From the NCBI GenBank assembly GCA_017305715.1, contig JAFKKG010000016.1:1-64000 (forward strand): 64,000 nt of DNA. Reading direction: 5' to 3'. Source of the stretch: Hyphomicrobiales bacterium (lineage in GTDB: Bacteria; Pseudomonadota; Alphaproteobacteria; Rhizobiales; Xanthobacteraceae). Both the position numbers and the translations under genes were made by a program. Below are positions 17,482-24,926 of this stretch, piece by piece. How positions within the stretch are numbered: position 1 is the stretch's first letter; each line of letters opens with the position of its first letter. The notes under the pieces are model-generated. The model was not told the origin of the DNA. It saw only the letters and a program-made list of their open reading frames with translations, and made no database searches.

Positions 17482-18144
17482 TCACACCGCGACGAGCTGC
17501 GCAGCGCCTGCCGTTCGTTTCGGCTTCTTCACCTTCGACGGCCCGAACAGCGATCCGGCGGCCAATCCTGCAGTGTCGGCGACGGCGGGATCCCGCGACA
17601 CCATGGCGGCGACGATGGCGCCGTCGATCAAGAGCGCCAGTTGATGCGCCAGGCTTTCGGGATCGGCCGCGCCCATTTCTCCGGCGAGCTTTTCGATGTG
17701 CGACAGCACCACCTTCTTGTGGCGCAGCGCGATGGCGCGGAACTGTTTTGCATCTTTGTCATGTTCAGCGACCGCGTTGATGAACGGGCAGCCGTAGAAG
17801 CGTTCTTCGCCGAACCAGCTTTTCAGCGCCGGAAAGATTCGCGTCAGCTTTGCCTGCGCATCGCCGCCGCCTTGCTCCATCGCGCCGATGAACCATTCGC
17901 GCCACGCCTTGCCCTCGCTCTCCAGCACGGCATGCACGAGGTTGGTTTTCGAGCCGAACAATTTGTACAGCGTCGTCTTCGCGGTGCCGGCCTCATGGAT
18001 GATGGCGTCGATGCCGGTGGCGTTGATTCCGTTCTTGCAGAACAAATGCGTCGCTGCGCTCAGCAGGCGGCCACGCGCCGATTCTTCGTCGTTTGCGCTG
18101 AGCGCTGCGGCGACAGCCTGTTTCTTCGAAACTGATTTGCCCAT
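17482..18144 (-). CDS. TetR/AcrR family transcriptional regulator
   Basis: The 220-residue protein has an N-terminal helix-turn-helix: RLLSAATHLFCKNGINATGIDAIIHEAGTA then KTTLYKLFGSKTNLV, the classic TetR recognition helix pattern. The C-terminal ligand domain is alpha helical, with a GCPFINAVAEHD segment common in a TetR group of short-chain/reactive-compound sensors. ATG at 18144 (MGKSVSKKQ) is favoured over upstream Mets that lack homology. It is divergent from the OsmC-like gene, with 232 bases between the starts, so it is the obvious candidate regulator of that cluster and of itself. The inducer is unknown. Confidence 0.85.
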   Translation of the reverse strand: MGKSVSKKQAVAAALSANDEESARGRLLSAATHLFCKNGINATGIDAIIHEAGTAKTTLYKLFGSKTNLVHAVLESEGKAWREWFIGAMEQGGGDAQAKLTRIFPALKSWFGEERFYGCPFINAVAEHDKDAKQFRAIALRHKKVVLSHIEKLAGEMGAADPESLAHQLALLIDGAIVAAMVSRDPAVADTAGLAAGSLFGPSKVKKPKRTAGAAQLVAV

Positions 18145-18316
18145 GGGCGACAGTAAATCGAACCGCGGCAAAATCATCAAGTCGCATCTTCATGCGCGCA
18201 AAATAATCGCGGCTGCGCGGCAATTGCATCGGCTTTGAGCAAGGTGCGGCTGATCAATTTCCGTGCAGCCACCGCTAAGCGGCGAGAGTAGTTCGGCTTT
18301 TGGTTTTGCTGGCGTC

Positions 18317-18332
18317 TGGCACGCTTCGTGCA
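18317..18332 (+). promoter_or_regulatory. Putative sigma-54 (RpoN) promoter of the OsmC-to-cyanase cluster
   Basis: TGGCACG-CTTC-GTGCA matches the consensus TGGCACG-N4-TTGCW with one mismatch (first T to G) and keeps the essential GG (18318-18319) and GC (18330-18331) exactly 10 bases apart. The predicted start near 18343 leaves a leader of about 34 bases to ATG 18377. A short inverted repeat ACCGTTCGGT lies at 18341-18350. An imperfect repeat GGTGCGGCTG/CAGCCACC (18243-18273) further upstream could hold an activator. RpoN control would fit a nitrogen-scavenging cluster ending in cyanase. Motif is seen; function is inferred. Confidence 0.6.
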
Positions 18333-18376
18333 GGAAACAGACCGTTCGGTATCCTACTCCCAGGGAGAAAACAACG

Positions 18377-18919
18377 ATGACCGCGGTCGCTCAGAAAACA
18401 GTGCTCACAGGCTGCCTCGCCCCGATCGACAAAGGCGGACTGGAGCAGCTCATCGCCAACGGCAAGGCCAATCCGAAGGTCATCAAGACCTTGAAATGCA
18501 AGACGGTGGCGGAGGGCAAGTTCCGCCACGCCAACTACATCCGCAACCTCGCGCCCTACATCGTCGACGAACCGCCCGGCCTGCTCGGCGACGACACCGC
18601 CCCCAATCCGTCGGAAGCCTCACTGGCCGCGCTCGGCTCCTGCCTGGCGGTCGGCCTCCACGCCAACGCGGTTCACCGCGGCTGGACCGTCAACAAGCTC
18701 GAACTCGAGCTCGAGGGCGATCTCAACATCACCGCGGTCTGGGGCACCGGCGACGTCAGCGAGAAGCCGGTCGGCTTCACCGACGTCCGCGTCAAGGTCG
18801 ACATGGTCTGCGAAGGCGTGCCGCAGAGCGAGATCGATGCGCTGGTGGCCCACGTCAAGAAATGGTCGCCGGTCGCCAACACGTTTACGCGCCCGGTCAA
18901 TCTCGAGGTCAGCGCCTAG
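18377..18919 (+). CDS. OsmC family protein
   Basis: The 180-residue product matches the OsmC/Ohr peroxidase fold: NPSEASLAALGSCLAVGLHANA carries the first cysteine and VRVKVDMVCEGVPQSEID the second, followed by VKKWSPVANTFTRPV. OsmC proteins reduce organic peroxides or, in some subgroups, bind small thiol or sulfur compounds. An N-terminal extension of about 35 residues (TGCLAPIDKGGLEQLI) precedes the common core. ATG 18377 follows the ribosome site AGGGAGA. It is the first gene of the cluster, 33 bases before an acyl-CoA-dehydrogenase-like gene, and behind a sigma-54-like promoter. The role in cyanate or sulfur handling is inferred from context only. Confidence 0.85.
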   Translation: MTAVAQKTVLTGCLAPIDKGGLEQLIANGKANPKVIKTLKCKTVAEGKFRHANYIRNLAPYIVDEPPGLLGDDTAPNPSEASLAALGSCLAVGLHANAVHRGWTVNKLELELEGDLNITAVWGTGDVSEKPVGFTDVRVKVDMVCEGVPQSEIDALVAHVKKWSPVANTFTRPVNLEVSA

Positions 18920-18952
18920 CCGAACGCGAAACACCGGGTGCGGGAGACGATC

Positions 18953-20068
18953 ATGGGTTCACTGGCTTTATCACGGGTCGAAGCGCTTGATCGGCCCGCA
19001 CCTTCGATATCAGACGAAGTGGCGCGGATCGCGCGGCAGGAATTGGCGCCGCTCGCCTCCGGCATCGATGCCGGCACGATCTATCCGGCCGAATTGCTCC
19101 GCAGCCTCGGCAAGGTTGGCGCGTGGCGCAGCCATGTCCCGCAGGAAGGCCCTGCCGATCTGCGCTGTGCCATCCAGTCGATCGCCGCGCTGGGCGAGGT
19201 CTGCGGCGCGACCGCCTTCATGGCGTGGTGTCAGAACACGCTGGTCTGGTATGTCGCGAACTCGAACAACCTGAAGCTCGCGCAGCGCTTCGGTGACGAC
19301 TTTTCGAGCGGAGCGCGGCTCGGGGGCACCGGGCTTTCCAACCCGATGAAGACCTTCTTCGGCATCGAGAAATTCAAGCTGAAAGGCCGCAAGGTCGAGG
19401 GCGGCTATGTCGTCAAGGGCGCGCTGCCCTGGGTGTCGAATCTCGGGCCCGACCATTTCTTCGGCACTATTTTCGAACGCGAGGACGAGCCCGGCAGCAT
19501 CGTGATGTTTCTCGCCGATTGTGCCGATCCCGCGGTCACACTGCAGCCCTGCAAGCCGTTCCTCGCCATGGACGGCACAGGAACGTATGGCGTCCAGTTC
19601 CGCGAATTGTTTGTGCCCGACGAATTGATCCTTGCGACGACGGCCGCGGCTTTCGTCAAGAAAATCCGTGCCGGATTCATTCTGCTTCAGGTCGGCATGG
19701 GGCTCGGTCTGATCAAGGACTGCATCCAGATCATGGACGAGGTCCATCCGCCGCTTGGCCACGTCAACCGCTATCTGCCGCAACAGCCGACCCAGTTCCG
19801 CGAACTGCATGCCGAGTTCGAGAAGGAGGCGATGGCGCTCGCCGCCGATCCCTACAATGCCGAGGACAGCTATTGGCGCCGCGTCATCGCGCTGCGATTG
19901 CGGCTTGGCGACGCCAGCGTCGCGGCGGCCCACGCGGCGATGCTCCATTGCGGCGCGCGCGGGTATTTGAAAAGCCACCGCGCCCAGCGCCGGCTGCGCG
20001 AAGCCTATTTCGTCGCCATCGTCACCCCCGCCACCAAGCAGCTTCGCAAGATGCTGGCCGGCGATTGA
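18953..20068 (+). CDS. Acyl-CoA dehydrogenase family flavoprotein
   Basis: The 371-residue protein has the three-part layout of the family: an N-terminal helical domain, a central beta domain (GGYVVKGALPWVSNLGP, FRELFVPDELI) and a C-terminal helical bundle ending HRAQRRLREAYFVAIVTPAT. The superfamily includes true acyl-CoA dehydrogenases and FMN-dependent monooxygenases acting on organosulfur or other small compounds (DszC, SfnC types). No fatty-acid genes are nearby; the neighbours are OsmC, rhodanese and cyanase, so oxidation of a small N- or S-containing substrate is more plausible than beta-oxidation. ATG 18953 follows GGGAGACGATC. The exact reaction is unknown. Confidence 0.8.
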   Translation: MGSLALSRVEALDRPAPSISDEVARIARQELAPLASGIDAGTIYPAELLRSLGKVGAWRSHVPQEGPADLRCAIQSIAALGEVCGATAFMAWCQNTLVWYVANSNNLKLAQRFGDDFSSGARLGGTGLSNPMKTFFGIEKFKLKGRKVEGGYVVKGALPWVSNLGPDHFFGTIFEREDEPGSIVMFLADCADPAVTLQPCKPFLAMDGTGTYGVQFRELFVPDELILATTAAAFVKKIRAGFILLQVGMGLGLIKDCIQIMDEVHPPLGHVNRYLPQQPTQFRELHAEFEKEAMALAADPYNAEDSYWRRVIALRLRLGDASVAAAHAAMLHCGARGYLKSHRAQRRLREAYFVAIVTPATKQLRKMLAGD

Positions 20069-20127
20069 GCCCAAAGGATTTTTTCGGTTCGACCCCAACT
20101 GCAACCCCAAAACAGGAGAGGCCTGCC

Positions 20128-21006
20128 ATGACGGACGTGCTGATTACTGCCGGCGAACTCGTCGAATTCCTGAAAAAAGAGCCGTGTGTCGTGATCGACA
20201 CCCGCAACCCCGATGCCTATGGCGCGGGACACCTGCCCAATGCGGTCAACGTCCACGAAATCTTCACCTACCTTGCGACCTCGACGCCGGAGGGCATGCA
20301 GGAATTGAAGACGAAGTTCGCCGATGCGTTCGGCGCCGCCGGGCTTTCCGGCAAGGAAACCGCCGTCATCTACGAGCAGTCGATGAACTCCGGCTTCGGC
20401 CAGTCCTGCCGCGGCTACTATCTGCTCACGATGCTCGGCTATCCCAAGATCAAGGTGCTGCATGGCGGCTACGATGCCTGGGTCGCCGCGGGTCTTCCCG
20501 TGACCACCGATGTGCCGTCGCCGGTGAAAGCGTCATTCTCGATCGTGCCGGAAGCCGGCGACATCCTGATCGACGCCAAGACCATGCTGGCGGCGCTCGG
20601 CAAGCCCGGCATCGCGCTGCTCGACGTGCGCGATGTCGATGAATGGATCGGCGACAGTTCCTCGCCCTACGGCAAAGACTTCTGTCCGCGCAAGGGACGG
20701 ATTCCCGGTGCCGTCTGGCTGGAATGGTACCGCATGATGAAGCCGACGGCGGAAGGTCCGCGTTTCAAGTCCAAGGACGAGATTTTGGCGGAATGCGCCA
20801 CCGTCGGCATTTCCGAAAATACGCCGGTCTATCTCTATTGCTTCAAGGGCGCGCGGGCCTCGAACACCTTCCTTGCCTTGAAGAATGCGGGGGTAAAGGA
20901 CGTCCGGATGTATTTCGGCTCCTGGAACGAATGGTCGCGCGATCCCTCGCTGCCGATCGATGAGGGCTTGCCGACCGCTGCCCGTTTAACAGGCAAAGCG
21001 GCATAG
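20128..21006 (+). CDS. Two-domain rhodanese-like sulfurtransferase
   Basis: The 292-residue product has two rhodanese domains. The first (about 1-125) contains CVVIDTRNPDAYGAGHLPNA and has no catalytic cysteine in the loop position. The second (about 150-285) contains LLDVRDVDEWIGD and the active loop YLYCFKGARAS with Cys as the sulfur carrier. This is the layout of thiosulfate or 3-mercaptopyruvate sulfurtransferases, which move sulfane sulfur to cyanide or thiols. ATG 20128 follows AGGAGAGG. It sits 59 bases after the flavoprotein gene and 109 before the importer gene. In context it may handle sulfur released from an N-C-S compound, which is inference. Confidence 0.88.
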   Translation: MTDVLITAGELVEFLKKEPCVVIDTRNPDAYGAGHLPNAVNVHEIFTYLATSTPEGMQELKTKFADAFGAAGLSGKETAVIYEQSMNSGFGQSCRGYYLLTMLGYPKIKVLHGGYDAWVAAGLPVTTDVPSPVKASFSIVPEAGDILIDAKTMLAALGKPGIALLDVRDVDEWIGDSSSPYGKDFCPRKGRIPGAVWLEWYRMMKPTAEGPRFKSKDEILAECATVGISENTPVYLYCFKGARASNTFLALKNAGVKDVRMYFGSWNEWSRDPSLPIDEGLPTAARLTGKAA

Positions 21007-21115
21007 AACATGCATGTTTCCCACGGCCCGGCAAAACAGGCCAGGCCGTGAAAAAAATTGCCGGAACGCGGCGGAACGGGACTTCCGCCGCGCCGGTGTG
21101 ACAAAGGGGCGCAGC

Positions 21116-22501
21116 ATGTCTACCTTCGATGATCCGTTCGATGCCGACCGTGACCTCAAGCGCGCCGGCTGTGCCTGCGGCCAGCATCGCTCCGCGGCCG
21201 AGCACGAACATGCCGCGCTGGCCCTGCGCTGCGAGCCCGCCGGGAGCGAGGAGAAACGCTATGAAGGTGTGGTCGCGTCCGCCGTGGTGCGGGCGATGTT
21301 CCCCAGGGACGCCGCGCGCCGCGCCTTCCTGAAATCGGTCGGCGCCTCGACGGCGCTGGCCGCGATCTCGCAATTCTTCCCGATCAAGGCGGCAACCGAA
21401 GCCTTTGCCGATTCCGGCACGCCGGAGAAGAAGGACCTCAAGGTCGGCTTCATCCCGATCACCTGCGCGACGCCGATCATCATGGCGGCACCGCTCGGCT
21501 TCTATTCGAAATACGGTCTCAACGTCGAAGTGGTGAAGACTGCCGGCTGGGCCGTGATCCGCGACAAGACCATGAACAAGGAATACGACGCGGCCCACAT
21601 GCTGGCGCCGATGCCGATCGCGATCACGCTGGGACTCGGCGCCAACGCCGTGCCGTTCACGGTGCCGGCGATCGAAAACATCAACGGGCAGGGCATCACG
21701 CTCGCCATGAAGCACAAGGACAAGCGCGATCCCAAGGACTGGAAAGGCATGAAGTTCGCCATTCCGTTCGATTACTCCATGCACAATTATCTGTTGCGCT
21801 ATTATCTCGCCGAACATGGCATCGATCCCGATACCGACGTGCAATTGCGTTCGGTGCCGCCGCCGGAGATGGTCGCCAACCTGCGCGCCGACAACATCGA
21901 CGGCTTCCTCGCGCCCGACAATATCTGCCAGCGCGCGATCTATGACGGCGTCGGCTTCATGCACATCCTCTCCAAGGAAATCTGGGACGGACATCCCTGT
22001 TGCAGCTTTGCCGCGAGCCGCGAGTTCATCACGCAGTCGCCGAACAGTTTTGCGGCGCTGACACGCGCGATCGTCGATGCGACGGCCTATGCATCGAAAG
22101 CCGAAAACCGCAAGCAGATCGCCGAGGCGATCGCGCCGGCCAATTACATCAATGCGCCGGTGACGGTGCTGGAGCAGGTGCTCACGGGAACCTATGCCGA
22201 CGGACTTGGCGGCGTCAAAACCGACGCCAAGCGCGTCGATTTCGATCCGTTCCCCTGGCAGTCCTTTGCGGTGTGGATGATGACGCAGATGAAGCGCTGG
22301 GGCCAGATCAAGGGCGATGTCGATTACAAGGCGGTGGCCGAGCAGGTCTATCTTGCGACCGACACCGCCAAGGTGATGAGGGAAATGGGTTTGGCGCCGC
22401 CATCGACGGCCTACAAATCCTTCGCGGTGATGGGCAAGACCTTCGATCCCACAAAACCCGACGACTATCTCGCCGGCTTCAAGATCAGGAAGTCTTCGTG
22501 A
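21116..22501 (+). CDS. NrtA/CmpA-type ABC transporter substrate-binding protein
   Basis: The 461-residue protein belongs to the nitrate/bicarbonate/cyanate-type binding family: VGFIPITCATPIIMAAPLGFYSKYGL, then WKGMKFAIPFDYSMHNYLLRYYL, and a late WPWQ-like block FDPFPWQSFAVWMM. A twin-arginine-like signal (RRAFLKSVGASTALAAI) starts only at residue 68, behind a 65-residue cytosolic-looking extension with GCACGQHRSAAEHEH, a possible metal-binding motif. Similar extended proteins exist in related genomes as I recall. The ATG at 21116 follows AAGGGGCGC. The linked cyanase suggests cyanate or a related nitrogen anion as ligand, but the family cannot fix the substrate. Confidence 0.87.
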   Translation: MSTFDDPFDADRDLKRAGCACGQHRSAAEHEHAALALRCEPAGSEEKRYEGVVASAVVRAMFPRDAARRAFLKSVGASTALAAISQFFPIKAATEAFADSGTPEKKDLKVGFIPITCATPIIMAAPLGFYSKYGLNVEVVKTAGWAVIRDKTMNKEYDAAHMLAPMPIAITLGLGANAVPFTVPAIENINGQGITLAMKHKDKRDPKDWKGMKFAIPFDYSMHNYLLRYYLAEHGIDPDTDVQLRSVPPPEMVANLRADNIDGFLAPDNICQRAIYDGVGFMHILSKEIWDGHPCCSFAASREFITQSPNSFAALTRAIVDATAYASKAENRKQIAEAIAPANYINAPVTVLEQVLTGTYADGLGGVKTDAKRVDFDPFPWQSFAVWMMTQMKRWGQIKGDVDYKAVAEQVYLATDTAKVMREMGLAPPSTAYKSFAVMGKTFDPTKPDDYLAGFKIRKSS

Positions 22502-22523
22502 GACGCGGCGTCGCTCTCTCTTC

Positions 22524-22656
22524 ACCTCTCCCCGCTTGCGGGGAGAGGTCGGATCGCGTTTGCGATCCGGGTGAGGGGGTACAAGTCTATCAATTCACAC
22601 CAGCCGTGCGGAGAGTCCCCCTCATCCCAACCTTCTCCCCGCAAGCGGGGAGAAGG
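22524..22656. repeat. 133-bp nested palindromic repeat inside the importer operon
   Basis: The element has three hairpins: ACCTCTCCCCGC/GCGGGGAGAGGT (22524-22549), GGATCGC/GCGATCC (22551-22568) and CCTTCTCCCCGC/GCGGGGAGAAGG (22631-22656). The outer arms GGGTGAGGGGG (22569) and CCCCCTCATCCC (22617) also pair, so the whole block is one large palindrome. It is typical of dispersed repeats in Bradyrhizobium-like genomes. Its last arm ends 2 bases before the permease ATG and supplies GGGGAGAAGG as ribosome site, so folding of the repeat could limit permease translation. Confidence 0.88.
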
Positions 22657-22658
22657 AG

Positions 22659-23498
22659 ATGACCTTCTCGCTCCGCTTTCGCGCGGCGATCGTGTCGCTG
22701 GTGCTGTTCGCCGCCTTCCTCGGCATCTGGCATCTCGCCACGCGCAGCACTGCCGCCGTCGCCAACATGACACCGGAATACGCCAAACTGATGGGGCTGA
22801 CCGCGACCGCCGGCAAATCGGCGATGCCCGGTCCGTTCGATGTCGGCGCCAAGCTGTGGGAGCATTTGAAGCGGCCGTTCTACGACAACGGGCCGAACGA
22901 CAAGGGCCTCGGCATCCAACTCGGCTATTCCATCGCCCGCGTCGGCCTCGGCTATCTGCTGGCGGTGCTGGTCGCGATCCCGCTCGGCTTCCTGATCGGC
23001 ATGTCGCCTCTGATCAGCAAGGCGCTCGATCCGTTCATCCAGGTGCTGAAGCCGATCTCGCCGCTGGCCTGGATGCCGCTCGCTCTCTACACCATCAAGG
23101 ATTCCAGCATTTCCGCGATCTTCGTGATCTTCATCTGCTCGGTATGGCCGATGCTGCTCAACACCGCGTTCGGCGTTGCCGCGGTGCGCAAGGAATGGAT
23201 CAACGTCGCCCGCACGCTGGAAGTCGGCACCATCAGGCGCGCCTTCACCGTGATCCTGCCGGCCGCGGCGCCGACCATTCTCACGGGCATGCGGATCTCG
23301 ATCGGGATCGCCTGGCTGGTGATCGTCGCCGCCGAGATGCTGGTCGGCGGCACCGGCATCGGCTATTTCGTCTGGAACGAGTGGAATAACCTCTCGATCA
23401 CCAATGTCATCATCGCGATCCTGCTGATCGGCATCGTCGGCATGCTGCTCGACCAGGTCCTTGCGCGCTTTGCGCGCATGGTCACGTTCCCGGAGTAG
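22659..23498 (+). CDS. ABC transporter permease, NrtB/CynB-like
   Basis: The 279-residue inner-membrane protein has an N-terminal helix (AAIVSLVLFAAFLGIWHLA), a periplasmic loop and about five further helices. The EAA-type cytoplasmic loop reads NVARTLEVGTIRRAFTVILPAAAPTIL, which couples to the ATPase. The family imports nitrate, cyanate, taurine and similar small anions. ATG 22659 is placed directly after the palindromic repeat, which supplies the Shine-Dalgarno sequence. It is followed 4 bases later by the ATPase gene. As the middle gene of a three-gene importer next to cyanase, it most likely forms the channel for cyanate or a related compound. Confidence 0.9.
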   Translation: MTFSLRFRAAIVSLVLFAAFLGIWHLATRSTAAVANMTPEYAKLMGLTATAGKSAMPGPFDVGAKLWEHLKRPFYDNGPNDKGLGIQLGYSIARVGLGYLLAVLVAIPLGFLIGMSPLISKALDPFIQVLKPISPLAWMPLALYTIKDSSISAIFVIFICSVWPMLLNTAFGVAAVRKEWINVARTLEVGTIRRAFTVILPAAAPTILTGMRISIGIAWLVIVAAEMLVGGTGIGYFVWNEWNNLSITNVIIAILLIGIVGMLLDQVLARFARMVTFPE

Positions 23499-23502
23499 CG
23501 CG

Positions 23503-24414
23503 ATGACCGACAAATTCATCTCGATCGAAGGCATCGCGCGGCGCTATCCCGGCGCCGATGGCGGCCGGATCAGCGTATTCGAAAATCTCTGGCTGTCGAT
23601 GTCGCGCGGCGAGTTCGGCTGCGTGATCGGCCATTCCGGTTGCGGCAAAACCACCGTGCTGAATATCCTCGCCGGGCTCGACGAACCCAGCGAAGGCGCC
23701 GTCATCGTCGACGGGCAGGCGATCGAGGGCACCAGCCTCGACCGCGCGGTTATCTTCCAGAGCCATGCGCTGCTGCCGTGGCGCACGGTGCTCGGCAACG
23801 TTTCCTATGCCGTGACTTCGAAATGGCGCAAATGGGACCGCGCCAGGGTCAAGGCGCATGCGCAGAAGTTCATCGATCTGGTCGGGCTGACCGGTTCCGA
23901 GCACAAGCGGCCGTCGGAATTGTCCGGCGGCATGAAGCAGCGCGTCGGCATCGCGCGGGCGCTGTCGATCAGCCCGAAAATCATGCTGATGGACGAGCCG
24001 TTCTCGGCGCTGGATGCGCTGACGCGGGGCACGCTGCAGGACGAGGTCCGGCGCATCTGTCTGGAGACCGGGCAGACCGCCTTCATGATCACGCATGACG
24101 TGGACGAGGCGATCTACCTTGCCGACAAGATTTTCCTGATGACCAACGGACCCGGCGCGGTGCTGGCCGAGATCGTCGAAAATCCGCTGCCAAAGGATCG
24201 CGGCCGCATCGATCTGCACCGCCACCCCTATTACTACGCGCTGCGAAACCACATCGTCGATTTCCTGGTCAGCCGCAGCAAGAATTTCGCGGCCACGGTC
24301 GCCAATCACGATCCGCGTAACGTGCCGACGGTACGGCCGGGTTTGGGCGATCCGACCATCGTCTCGACGCCGAAAGTGGTCGAGACCCATCCGGCCCAGA
24401 CGGCCGCGCGCTAG
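23503..24414 (+). CDS. ABC transporter ATP-binding protein, NrtD/CynD-like
   Basis: The 303-residue ATPase has Walker A GHSGCGKTT (about 45-53), Q-loop FQSHALLPW, signature LSGGMKQRVGIARAL, Walker B IMLMDEPFSALD and the switch histidine in ITHDVDEA. A tail of about 60 residues after the ATPase core includes HRHPYYYALRNHIVDFL, common in NrtD/SsuB-type proteins. ATG 23503 is 4 bases after the permease stop, so translation is probably coupled. It energises the importer formed with the binding protein and permease upstream. Identity as an ABC ATPase is certain; the substrate is inferred from cyanase 23 bases downstream. Confidence 0.93.
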   Translation: MTDKFISIEGIARRYPGADGGRISVFENLWLSMSRGEFGCVIGHSGCGKTTVLNILAGLDEPSEGAVIVDGQAIEGTSLDRAVIFQSHALLPWRTVLGNVSYAVTSKWRKWDRARVKAHAQKFIDLVGLTGSEHKRPSELSGGMKQRVGIARALSISPKIMLMDEPFSALDALTRGTLQDEVRRICLETGQTAFMITHDVDEAIYLADKIFLMTNGPGAVLAEIVENPLPKDRGRIDLHRHPYYYALRNHIVDFLVSRSKNFAATVANHDPRNVPTVRPGLGDPTIVSTPKVVETHPAQTAAR

Positions 24415-24437
24415 CAAATCACCAAGGGAGACGTAAC

Positions 24438-24926
24438 ATGAAACGCGAAGATCTCACCGAAAAGCTGCTCGACATCAAGCGCGAGAAGGGCTGGAGCTGG
24501 AAGCATATCTGCGAGAAGATCGGCGGCTATTCCGAGGTGCTGATCGTCGGCGCCATCCTCGGCCAGATGAAACTGACAAAACCGCAGGCTGCGAATGCGG
24601 CGGAATTGTTCGGCCTGACGAAATCCGAGACCGCGATGCTGAACGAGGTGCCGATGCGCGGCACCGGGACGCCGATGCCGCCGACCGATCCGCTGATCTA
24701 TCGCTTCTACGAGATGGTGATGGTCAACGGCCCCGCCTGGAAGGCGCTGATCGAAGAGGAATTCGGCGACGGCATCATGTCGGCGATCGACTTCGACATG
24801 GCGATGGAACGCGTCGCCAATCCCAAGGGCGACCGCGTCAAGATCACCATGTCCGGCAAATTCCTGCCGTATAAATATTACGGCGCCAGCGGCAACGTGC
24901 CGGAGTATGGATTCAAGGAAGGGTAG
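24438..24926 (+). CDS. cynS: Cyanate hydratase (cyanase)
   Basis: Cyanase converts cyanate and bicarbonate to ammonia and CO2 via carbamate. The 162-residue product has an N-terminal helix-turn-helix-like domain (KREKGWSWKHICEKIGGYSE) and the catalytic C-terminal half: LIYRFYEMVMVNGPAWKALI provides the conserved Arg and Glu, and FGDGIMSAIDF the catalytic Ser. The C-terminus KFLPYKYYGASG is close to family form. ATG 24438 follows AAGGGAGACG. It is the last gene of the cluster, 23 bases after the ATPase gene, and its presence is the main clue to what the importer brings in. Identity is firm. Confidence 0.96.
   Translation: MKREDLTEKLLDIKREKGWSWKHICEKIGGYSEVLIVGAILGQMKLTKPQAANAAELFGLTKSETAMLNEVPMRGTGTPMPPTDPLIYRFYEMVMVNGPAWKALIEEEFGDGIMSAIDFDMAMERVANPKGDRVKITMSGKFLPYKYYGASGNVPEYGFKEG

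Follow-up and report, generated by a model that had tools for sequence, protein, structure and literature searches.

Why would a cyanase and its importer share one apparent operon with an OsmC-like protein, a flavoprotein and a rhodanese? We addressed this question at a cluster of seven genes, all on the plus strand within positions 18377-24926 of a 64,000-nucleotide stretch of DNA (the window) from a Hyphomicrobiales bacterium of the Xanthobacteraceae (GenBank contig JAFKKG010000016.1). The preliminary description of this cluster suggested that the co-directional genes serve to take up a compound of nitrogen, carbon and sulfur (N-C-S) and to split it oxidatively to sulfane sulfur and cyanate. 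Their positions and strand are confirmed, and Pfam and NCBIfam profile searches agree with each other and with the names given to the genes. We find that the cluster consists of two joined modules: a core, which comprises tetR, osmC, the flavoprotein gene and the rhodanese gene, and the known cynABDS cyanate operon without CynF, in which cynS is directly preceded by an NrtABC-type importer as expected of a cyn operon (CynABD-CynS). Together they may act as one sigma54-dependent, TetR-repressed operon for scavenging the nitrogen, and probably also the sulfur, of a small S-C-N compound. Thiocyanate is the most likely such compound, and we give this reading about an even chance. Oxidative cleavage of an N-C-S compound into cyanate and sulfane sulfur explains the comparative data most simply, with a substrate that we infer, and the divergent TetR gene and the sigma54 promoter go beyond what had been described.

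The evidence that carries this reading comes from a scan of GTDB species genomes, from which we took the best 80 of at least 566 confirmed relatives, all in Bradyrhizobium or near kin; 67 of the 80 had enough flanking sequence. A tetR gene divergent from osmC-flavoprotein-rhodanese, with cynS downstream, is present in all 67 loci, and this grouping, judged from gene order, exceeds chance. The loci fall into a series of layouts: core-cynF-cynABDS in 41, the core followed directly by cynABDS as in the window in 17, core-cynS in six, and an arrangement with an extra binding protein in three. In the six core-cynS loci, all from Bradyrhizobium, the order is osmC-flavoprotein-rhodanese-cynS, the gap between rhodanese and cynS is about 100 bp and cynABD is absent. 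A search of five of these six genomes found no CynA homologue above 36% identity; four have only an NrtA homologue at 35-36%, and the fifth lacks any at E<=1e-30. Retention of cyanase where the cyanate importer is absent suggests that cyanate is probably made inside the cell by the core, and this is the conclusion that we hold most strongly. The earlier proposal that a flavoprotein and sulfur-transfer module accompanies cyanase is borne out by these six loci, and distant lineages add reductases, a Blh-like dioxygenase and cynS. The extra protein of the three remaining loci is CynA-like and encoded between rhodanese and cynF, as it also is at locus L064; it is perhaps dedicated to the core's own substrate.

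We compared sigma54 boxes at 81 loci including the window, using slightly different class rules and leaving 11 truncated or other loci outside the classes. A box precedes cynA at 41/44 loci where cynF is present and at 0/20 where it is absent (the window among these), while osmC has a box in 44/44 loci with cynF, 20/20 without and 6/6 with core and cynS alone. The best candidate upstream of the window's cynA matches only 8 of 12 positions, and no CynF-like match above 49% identity is present in the window genome, indicating that the cyn genes there are not under CynF and sigma54 control of their own. With CynF absent and no box at cynA, the cyn genes would therefore most simply be transcribed from the osmC promoter. 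On a quick tree of Bradyrhizobium-type flavoproteins (83 rows, of which 81 are of that type and two are outgroup, 70 with an assigned state), at least 11 changes are counted between presence and absence of cynF, and at least three between presence and absence of the importer.

The osmC promoter itself is widely kept. Of 132 distinct regions upstream of osmC, 117 carry within 300 bp a sigma54 box that matches the consensus at 10 or more of 12 positions (88/89 from Bradyrhizobium and 29/43 from elsewhere), compared with about 1% of mononucleotide shuffles; the 14 regions outside Bradyrhizobium that lack it belong largely to loci with SsuA-type importers. A second element, ACCGnnCGGT, lies no more than 150 bp ahead of osmC in 76/112 distinct regions that have tetR, in 1/20 that do not, and in 0.6% of shuffles; some other relatives carry ACAGAnCGnTCTGT-like forms instead. 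In Bradyrhizobium sp. DOA9, cynS and an OsmC-like gene are expressed less in rpoN mutants (PMC13207237). The box listed there for the OsmC-like gene, TGGCACGCTCCATGC at -58, is identical to that of locus L134 (PMC13207237), and the gene is likely an orthologue of the core osmC. Features of the window locus are collected in Table 1. From osmC to cynS, the intergenic gaps are 33, 59, 109, 157, 4 and 23 bp in order, the 157-bp gap being the one that carries a repeat element inside the apparent operon. The cynA product has a twin-arginine-like leader, judged by eye from its motif, and the cynS product also passes PRK02866 (221.6 against a cut-off of 150 bits).

Table 1. Genes and sequence elements of the core and cyn modules in the window
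Feature	Position	Strand	Evidence and remarks
TetR-family repressor gene (tetR)	17482..18180	-	PF00440 2.7e-13, PF16925 9.2e-7; divergent from osmC
sigma54 (-24/-12) promoter TGGCACGCTTCGTGCA	18317..18332	+	11/12 consensus; 60 bp before osmC start
palindrome ACCGTTCGGT	18341..18350		just 3' of sigma54 box; candidate TetR operator
osmC, OsmC-like protein, single cysteine, 180 aa	18377..18919	+	PF02566 1.7e-19
flavoprotein, acyl-CoA-dehydrogenase fold, 371 aa	about 18953..20068	+	PF02771 sole Pfam match, 6e-7 (N-terminal domain)
rhodanese (sulfurtransferase), two domains, 292 aa	20128..21006	+	PF00581 in two stretches; active loop CFKGAR
cynA, NrtA/CmpA-type binding protein	21116..22501	+	PF13379 (NMT1_2) 1.1e-81; NrtA 2g29 2.9e-49
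palindromic repeat element, cynA/cynB gap	22520..22655		CTCTCCCCGCTTGCGGGGAGAGG-like unit of 23 bp, present twice (22525, 22632)
cynB, permease	22659..23498	+	TIGR01183 ntrB 227.6 bits, cut-off 209.05
cynD, ATPase	about 23503..24414	+	TIGR01184 ntrCD 284.6 bits, just below cut-off 291.8
cynS, cyanase	24438..24926	+	TIGR00673 151 bits (cut-off 113.3); PF02560; PF21291

If the core makes cyanate, the flavoprotein is the candidate for the key enzyme, as a putative oxygenase or oxidase. Its AlphaFold2 model (mean pLDDT 90) has the acyl-CoA dehydrogenase fold: the 50 PDB matches listed all fall in this family, either as acyl-CoA dehydrogenases or as Thermus project entries, with identities of 13-22% and query-normalised TM scores of 0.71-0.83. 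In an alignment to 4kto, the positions of MCAD-376 and IVD-254, which we take to be the catalytic glutamates, are Pro359 and Leu245, so that neither glutamate is kept. Across 18 aligned flavoproteins, three motifs (GGT.LSN.MK, GARGY and RE..F.A.VTP) do not vary, and the protein is single-copy in the window genome at E<=1e-10. It therefore shares fold and N-terminal domain with the acyl-CoA dehydrogenases but differs from them in the lost glutamates, in its three invariant motifs and in the absence of an ETF gene among the seven. A role as a carbon-catabolic acyl-CoA dehydrogenase was set aside because the glutamates are gone and none of the seven genes encodes ETF. What suggests an oxygenase activity is the loss of the catalytic glutamates, together with the reductases that neighbor the flavoprotein in relatives.

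The two sulfur-related proteins of the core were compared across 126 distinct OsmC-like proteins and 117 distinct rhodaneses. Cys89 of OsmC is present in 125 of the 126, the remaining protein being unaligned at the site, and the position of the second cysteine is serine (Ser164) in all 126. OsmC/Ohr peroxidases rely on the roles of two redox cysteines. Neither the window OsmC nor any other of the 126 distinct proteins has both, which makes a two-cysteine peroxidase cycle unlikely, and we rejected this canonical role since the second position is always serine. The single-cysteine protein may instead be a persulfide acceptor. In the rhodanese, the active-site loop with Cys238 (CFKGAR, in the C-terminal domain) is kept in 115 of 117 proteins, the other two being unaligned there, and the nearest solved chain is the sulfurtransferase 1e0c (4.5e-25).

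We looked for the core in more distant bacteria. A draw across the phylum gave 22 of 398 genomes that match the flavoprotein at E<=1e-50, several of them from the window's own genus, and a draw across the class gave three of 385; 33 plasmid records also match, including 18 from Pseudosulfitobacter. Several of these lineages combine the flavoprotein with cyanase: Marinobacter (ABC-sigma54 regulator-OsmC-flavoprotein-FAD oxidoreductase-cynS), Acetobacter (OsmC-flavoprotein-rubredoxin protein-NrtA-ntrB-ATPase-cynS), Caballeronia (sigma54 regulator-osmC-flavoprotein-rubredoxin reductase-NrtABC-like-cynS-weakly Blh-like protein) and family f17 (osmC-flavoprotein-rhodanese-cynS-ferredoxin reductase-ferredoxin). 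Their linked cyanases are 50-55% identical to that of the window. The redox partners found beside the flavoprotein in relatives are a ferredoxin reductase, a rubredoxin-reductase fusion and a 2Fe-2S ferredoxin, and a Blh-like sulfur dioxygenase domain lies near it at L175 (1.6e-114) and L046 (1.1e-119), both below the cut-off of the full-length two-domain model. No cynS is present in the stretch read from Pseudosulfitobacter, Methylocystis, Moraxella, SC52 or Synechococcus pANL. On a quick tree of 69 flavoproteins (31 with adjacent cynS, 30 without, eight unknown), adjacency to cynS changes at least 7-8 times, where a change is a gain or a loss and long branches are flagged. The 69 were kept from 76 rows after near-duplicate or truncated entries were dropped (L033, L035, L039, L185, L187, L190, L202); L175 and L059 had their states assigned manually, and L044 and L046 were entered as unknown. 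The cynS match at L041 is a 41-residue fragment and was discounted as a linked cyanase, and the tree count is the same without it.

The importers of these lineages bear on the substrate. SsuA-type importers accompany the core in some of them (TIGR01728 4.7e-34, below cut-off), one such clade (sbpX-osmC-flav) is without cynS in all seven judged loci (of eight), and HCCA-isomerase-like DsbA-fold proteins adjoin the core. Such neighbors would fit a core whose substrate is a different organosulfur compound (isothiocyanate, thioamide, thiocarbamate or sulfonate), with cyanase clearing by-product cyanate or isocyanate. We consider this unlikely, given that the importer is of the small-anion NrtA type in Bradyrhizobium, Acetobacter and Caballeronia, and that retention of cyanase at the six importer-less loci fits a stoichiometric product over a trace by-product.

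The pathway that we propose for the window cluster starts with an anion that would enter the cytoplasm through the CynABD importer or by another route. The flavoprotein, reduced via a ferredoxin or rubredoxin encoded elsewhere in the genome, would then oxidize the sulfur with O2 and release cyanate, the predicted reaction being thiocyanate + O2 + reduced flavin -> cyanate + sulfane sulfur. The sulfane sulfur would pass as a persulfide to Cys89 of OsmC and to the rhodanese, and from there into assimilation or oxidation, while cyanase would convert cyanate to ammonia and CO2, a step that is established for the family with mutant data (PMC6627978). Redox partners are included because reductases lie beside the flavoprotein in relatives, and sulfur because a rhodanese is part of the core and a sulfur dioxygenase accompanies it in other lineages. 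Thiocyanate hydrolase loci (carbonyl sulfide pathway) combine sulfur-transfer proteins with an ABC importer of the NitT/TauT type, and the locus of one species, Thiobacillus thioparus, includes cyanase too (PMC5328954). We prefer thiocyanate because of these similar accessory genes, because the product is cyanate and because the importer is of the small-anion type. In its most specific form, the proposal makes the flavoprotein a thiocyanate monooxygenase, which would be a third, flavin- and O2-dependent route unrelated to the copper dehydrogenase or thiocyanate hydrolase, with the sulfur passed to a single-cysteine OsmC-like acceptor and rhodanese, common in Bradyrhizobium and scattered across the Proteobacteria; this form is tentative and falls short of being likely.

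The same genes could also be arranged around cyanide. Rhodanese and cyanase share one apparent operon, and the reaction of rhodanese with cyanide is established chemistry; rhodanese would turn cyanide into thiocyanate, the flavoprotein would turn thiocyanate (or cyanide directly) into cyanate and cyanase would finish, a detoxifying cycle in which sulfur is catalytic. In the clade with rubredoxin reductases, however, the scan found a rhodanese for only one of ten rows (L176) and a Blh-like neighbor for four of ten (one of them weak), pointing to the substrate as a net source of sulfur. Moreover, Pseudomonas pseudoalcaligenes degrades cyanide without its cyn genes (PMC6627978). We regard a cyanide cycle as very unlikely.

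Whether the core and the cyn genes belong together at all was assessed in 296 genomes of the window's family, of which 98 have the flavoprotein at E<=1e-20 and 68 have a copy of at least 50% identity. cynS occurs in 201 of the 296, and lies within 12 kb of the flavoprotein in 32 of the 68, a count to be read with the fact that some of the non-linked genomes have cynS on a separate contig. Linkage is complete in the window's own genus (17/17); elsewhere it is found in 15 of 51 genomes (g41, 12/12; g34, 2/5; g6, 1/1). Genomes with the flavoprotein more often have cynS (65/68 versus 136/228, p 9e-10; by genus 11/11 versus 25/36, p 0.046), a weak statistic since the genomes are related. The pattern that the preliminary description named as refuting it, relatives with cyanase and importer together and the other three genes far away, is seen in g26. 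There, cynS is on the same contig but megabases away in six genomes, on another contig in seven and absent in two; in g28 it is far off in four and on other contigs in seven. Of five g26 cyn loci that we read, four are cynFABDS and one is cynABDS without a CynF call, and both g28 loci read have CynF, cynA, cynD and cynS, a permease being called at only one of the two. Reductase calls at two g26 loci (L050 and L067) were discounted as 35% partial matches, probably to a neighboring lipoamide dehydrogenase. In G220, a flavoprotein-free genome of the window's genus, this site is occupied by cynFABDS with no core. Given G220 and the distance between the modules in g26 and g28, core and cyn locus can exist apart. 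The idea of a fixed seven-gene unit is therefore rejected, the two being kept apart in two genera, and what we see instead is a four-gene core beside a standard cyn locus.

A number of observations weigh against one operon acting on thiocyanate. The core is near cynS in none of the 15 g26 genomes, in none of the 11 g28 genomes and in none of seven from g38 (two), g17 (two), g30, g37 and g9 (one each); nor is cynS near any of 13 more distant flavoprotein copies (40-43% identical). It is also absent from all seven judged loci (of eight) of the sbpX-osmC-flav clade, and copies without cynS nearby mean that the family of the flavoprotein may have more than one substrate. The six importer-less strains are close relatives, the change counts rest on quick trees, and the promoter controls are simple mononucleotide shuffles. 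The modelled fold of the flavoprotein is nearest to ordinary acyl-CoA dehydrogenases, and the window cluster is without a reductase gene, homologues elsewhere in the genome reaching at most 44% identity. Finally, a cyanase beside a thiocyanate enzyme is no proof of a cyanate pathway (PMC5328954).

Part of this evidence favors two independent sigma54-regulated nitrogen-scavenging operons that happen to lie side by side, with cyanate imported and the core unrelated to it: the modules are apart in g26 and g28, the flavoprotein-free G220 has its cyn locus at the same site, and cynF still stands between core and cyn genes in 41 of the 67 loci. The cynA box, however, is lost along with cynF (0/20), cynS is kept without an importer at six loci and adjacency recurs in distant lineages with different importers. 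Mere neighborhood is thus, in our judgment, quite unlikely, and we retain the reading of a joint operon for an S-C-N compound.

The cyn module is closely matched by the cynFABDS genes of P. pseudoalcaligenes CECT5344, which encode a CynABD importer and CynS as in the window (PMC6627978). The relatives that keep cynF also share with it a sigma54 box and, divergent from cynA, the gene for a sigma54 activator of the CynF type. The window differs in having neither cynF nor the cynA box, and in having osmC-flavoprotein-rhodanese in front with a sigma54 box and a TetR gene of their own. The 'cyanate pathway' of thiocyanate dehydrogenase, described in Thioalkalivibrio, Thiohalobacter and Afipia, has the same net course from thiocyanate to sulfane sulfur and cyanate, followed by cyanase (PMC8061750, PMC5328954). 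That dehydrogenase is a copper protein, whereas the window enzyme has the acyl-CoA dehydrogenase fold; the copper fold is absent from the seven cluster proteins, which all belong to other families, the rest of the genome not having been searched for it. Unlike thiocyanate hydrolase loci, which encode three subunits (scnABC), the cluster has no hydrolase subunits. A full NHase_alpha match lies far from the window in the same genome (G000:C25:92685-93230, L225) with beta-like and small accessory open reading frames, and there is one partial match besides; from its layout, the C25 locus appears to be a nitrile hydratase.

Further relatives of the flavoprotein occur in other settings. On a far branch (L178, L184, L185, L187 and L188; 28-30% identical), an AhpD-like peroxidase-related protein replaces OsmC and the importer is SsuA-type. 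An AhpD-like protein, a flavoprotein relative and rubredoxin are found together at L202 (a Neisseria gonorrhoeae record) and L183 (8587-9135 onward), and no importer of the cluster's type was seen in the 8-10 kb flanks of either. Host mucosa is rich in thiocyanate. The Synechococcus plasmid pANL (L194) carries a 30% identical flavoprotein homologue with DUF4242 and an ABC importer, as well as two cysteine synthases, an encapsulin system and a catalase-family peroxidase. The plasmid with this homologue has been described as rich in sulfur genes (PMC8049743). In Synechococcus PCC 7942, a cysR mutant is reportedly unable to use thiocyanate as a source of sulfur, and pANL is said to carry CysR-regulated genes, which we do not use as evidence.

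The cluster is a real, conserved extension of the cyn operon, and a new route of thiocyanate use is plausible. We found no description of the osmC-flavoprotein-rhodanese-cyn gene set in the openly licensed literature searched. Several heterotrophs grow on thiocyanate as a nitrogen source (PMC5328954), and the same search yielded no enzyme with this gene set for thiocyanate use. The natural series of loci in which core and cyn genes are adjacent, fused or without an importer makes the hypothesis directly testable. If it is true, many Bradyrhizobium and other soil bacteria would carry a small operon for thiocyanate use, in which the chemistry of the flavin would be new and OsmC proteins would serve as sulfur acceptors.

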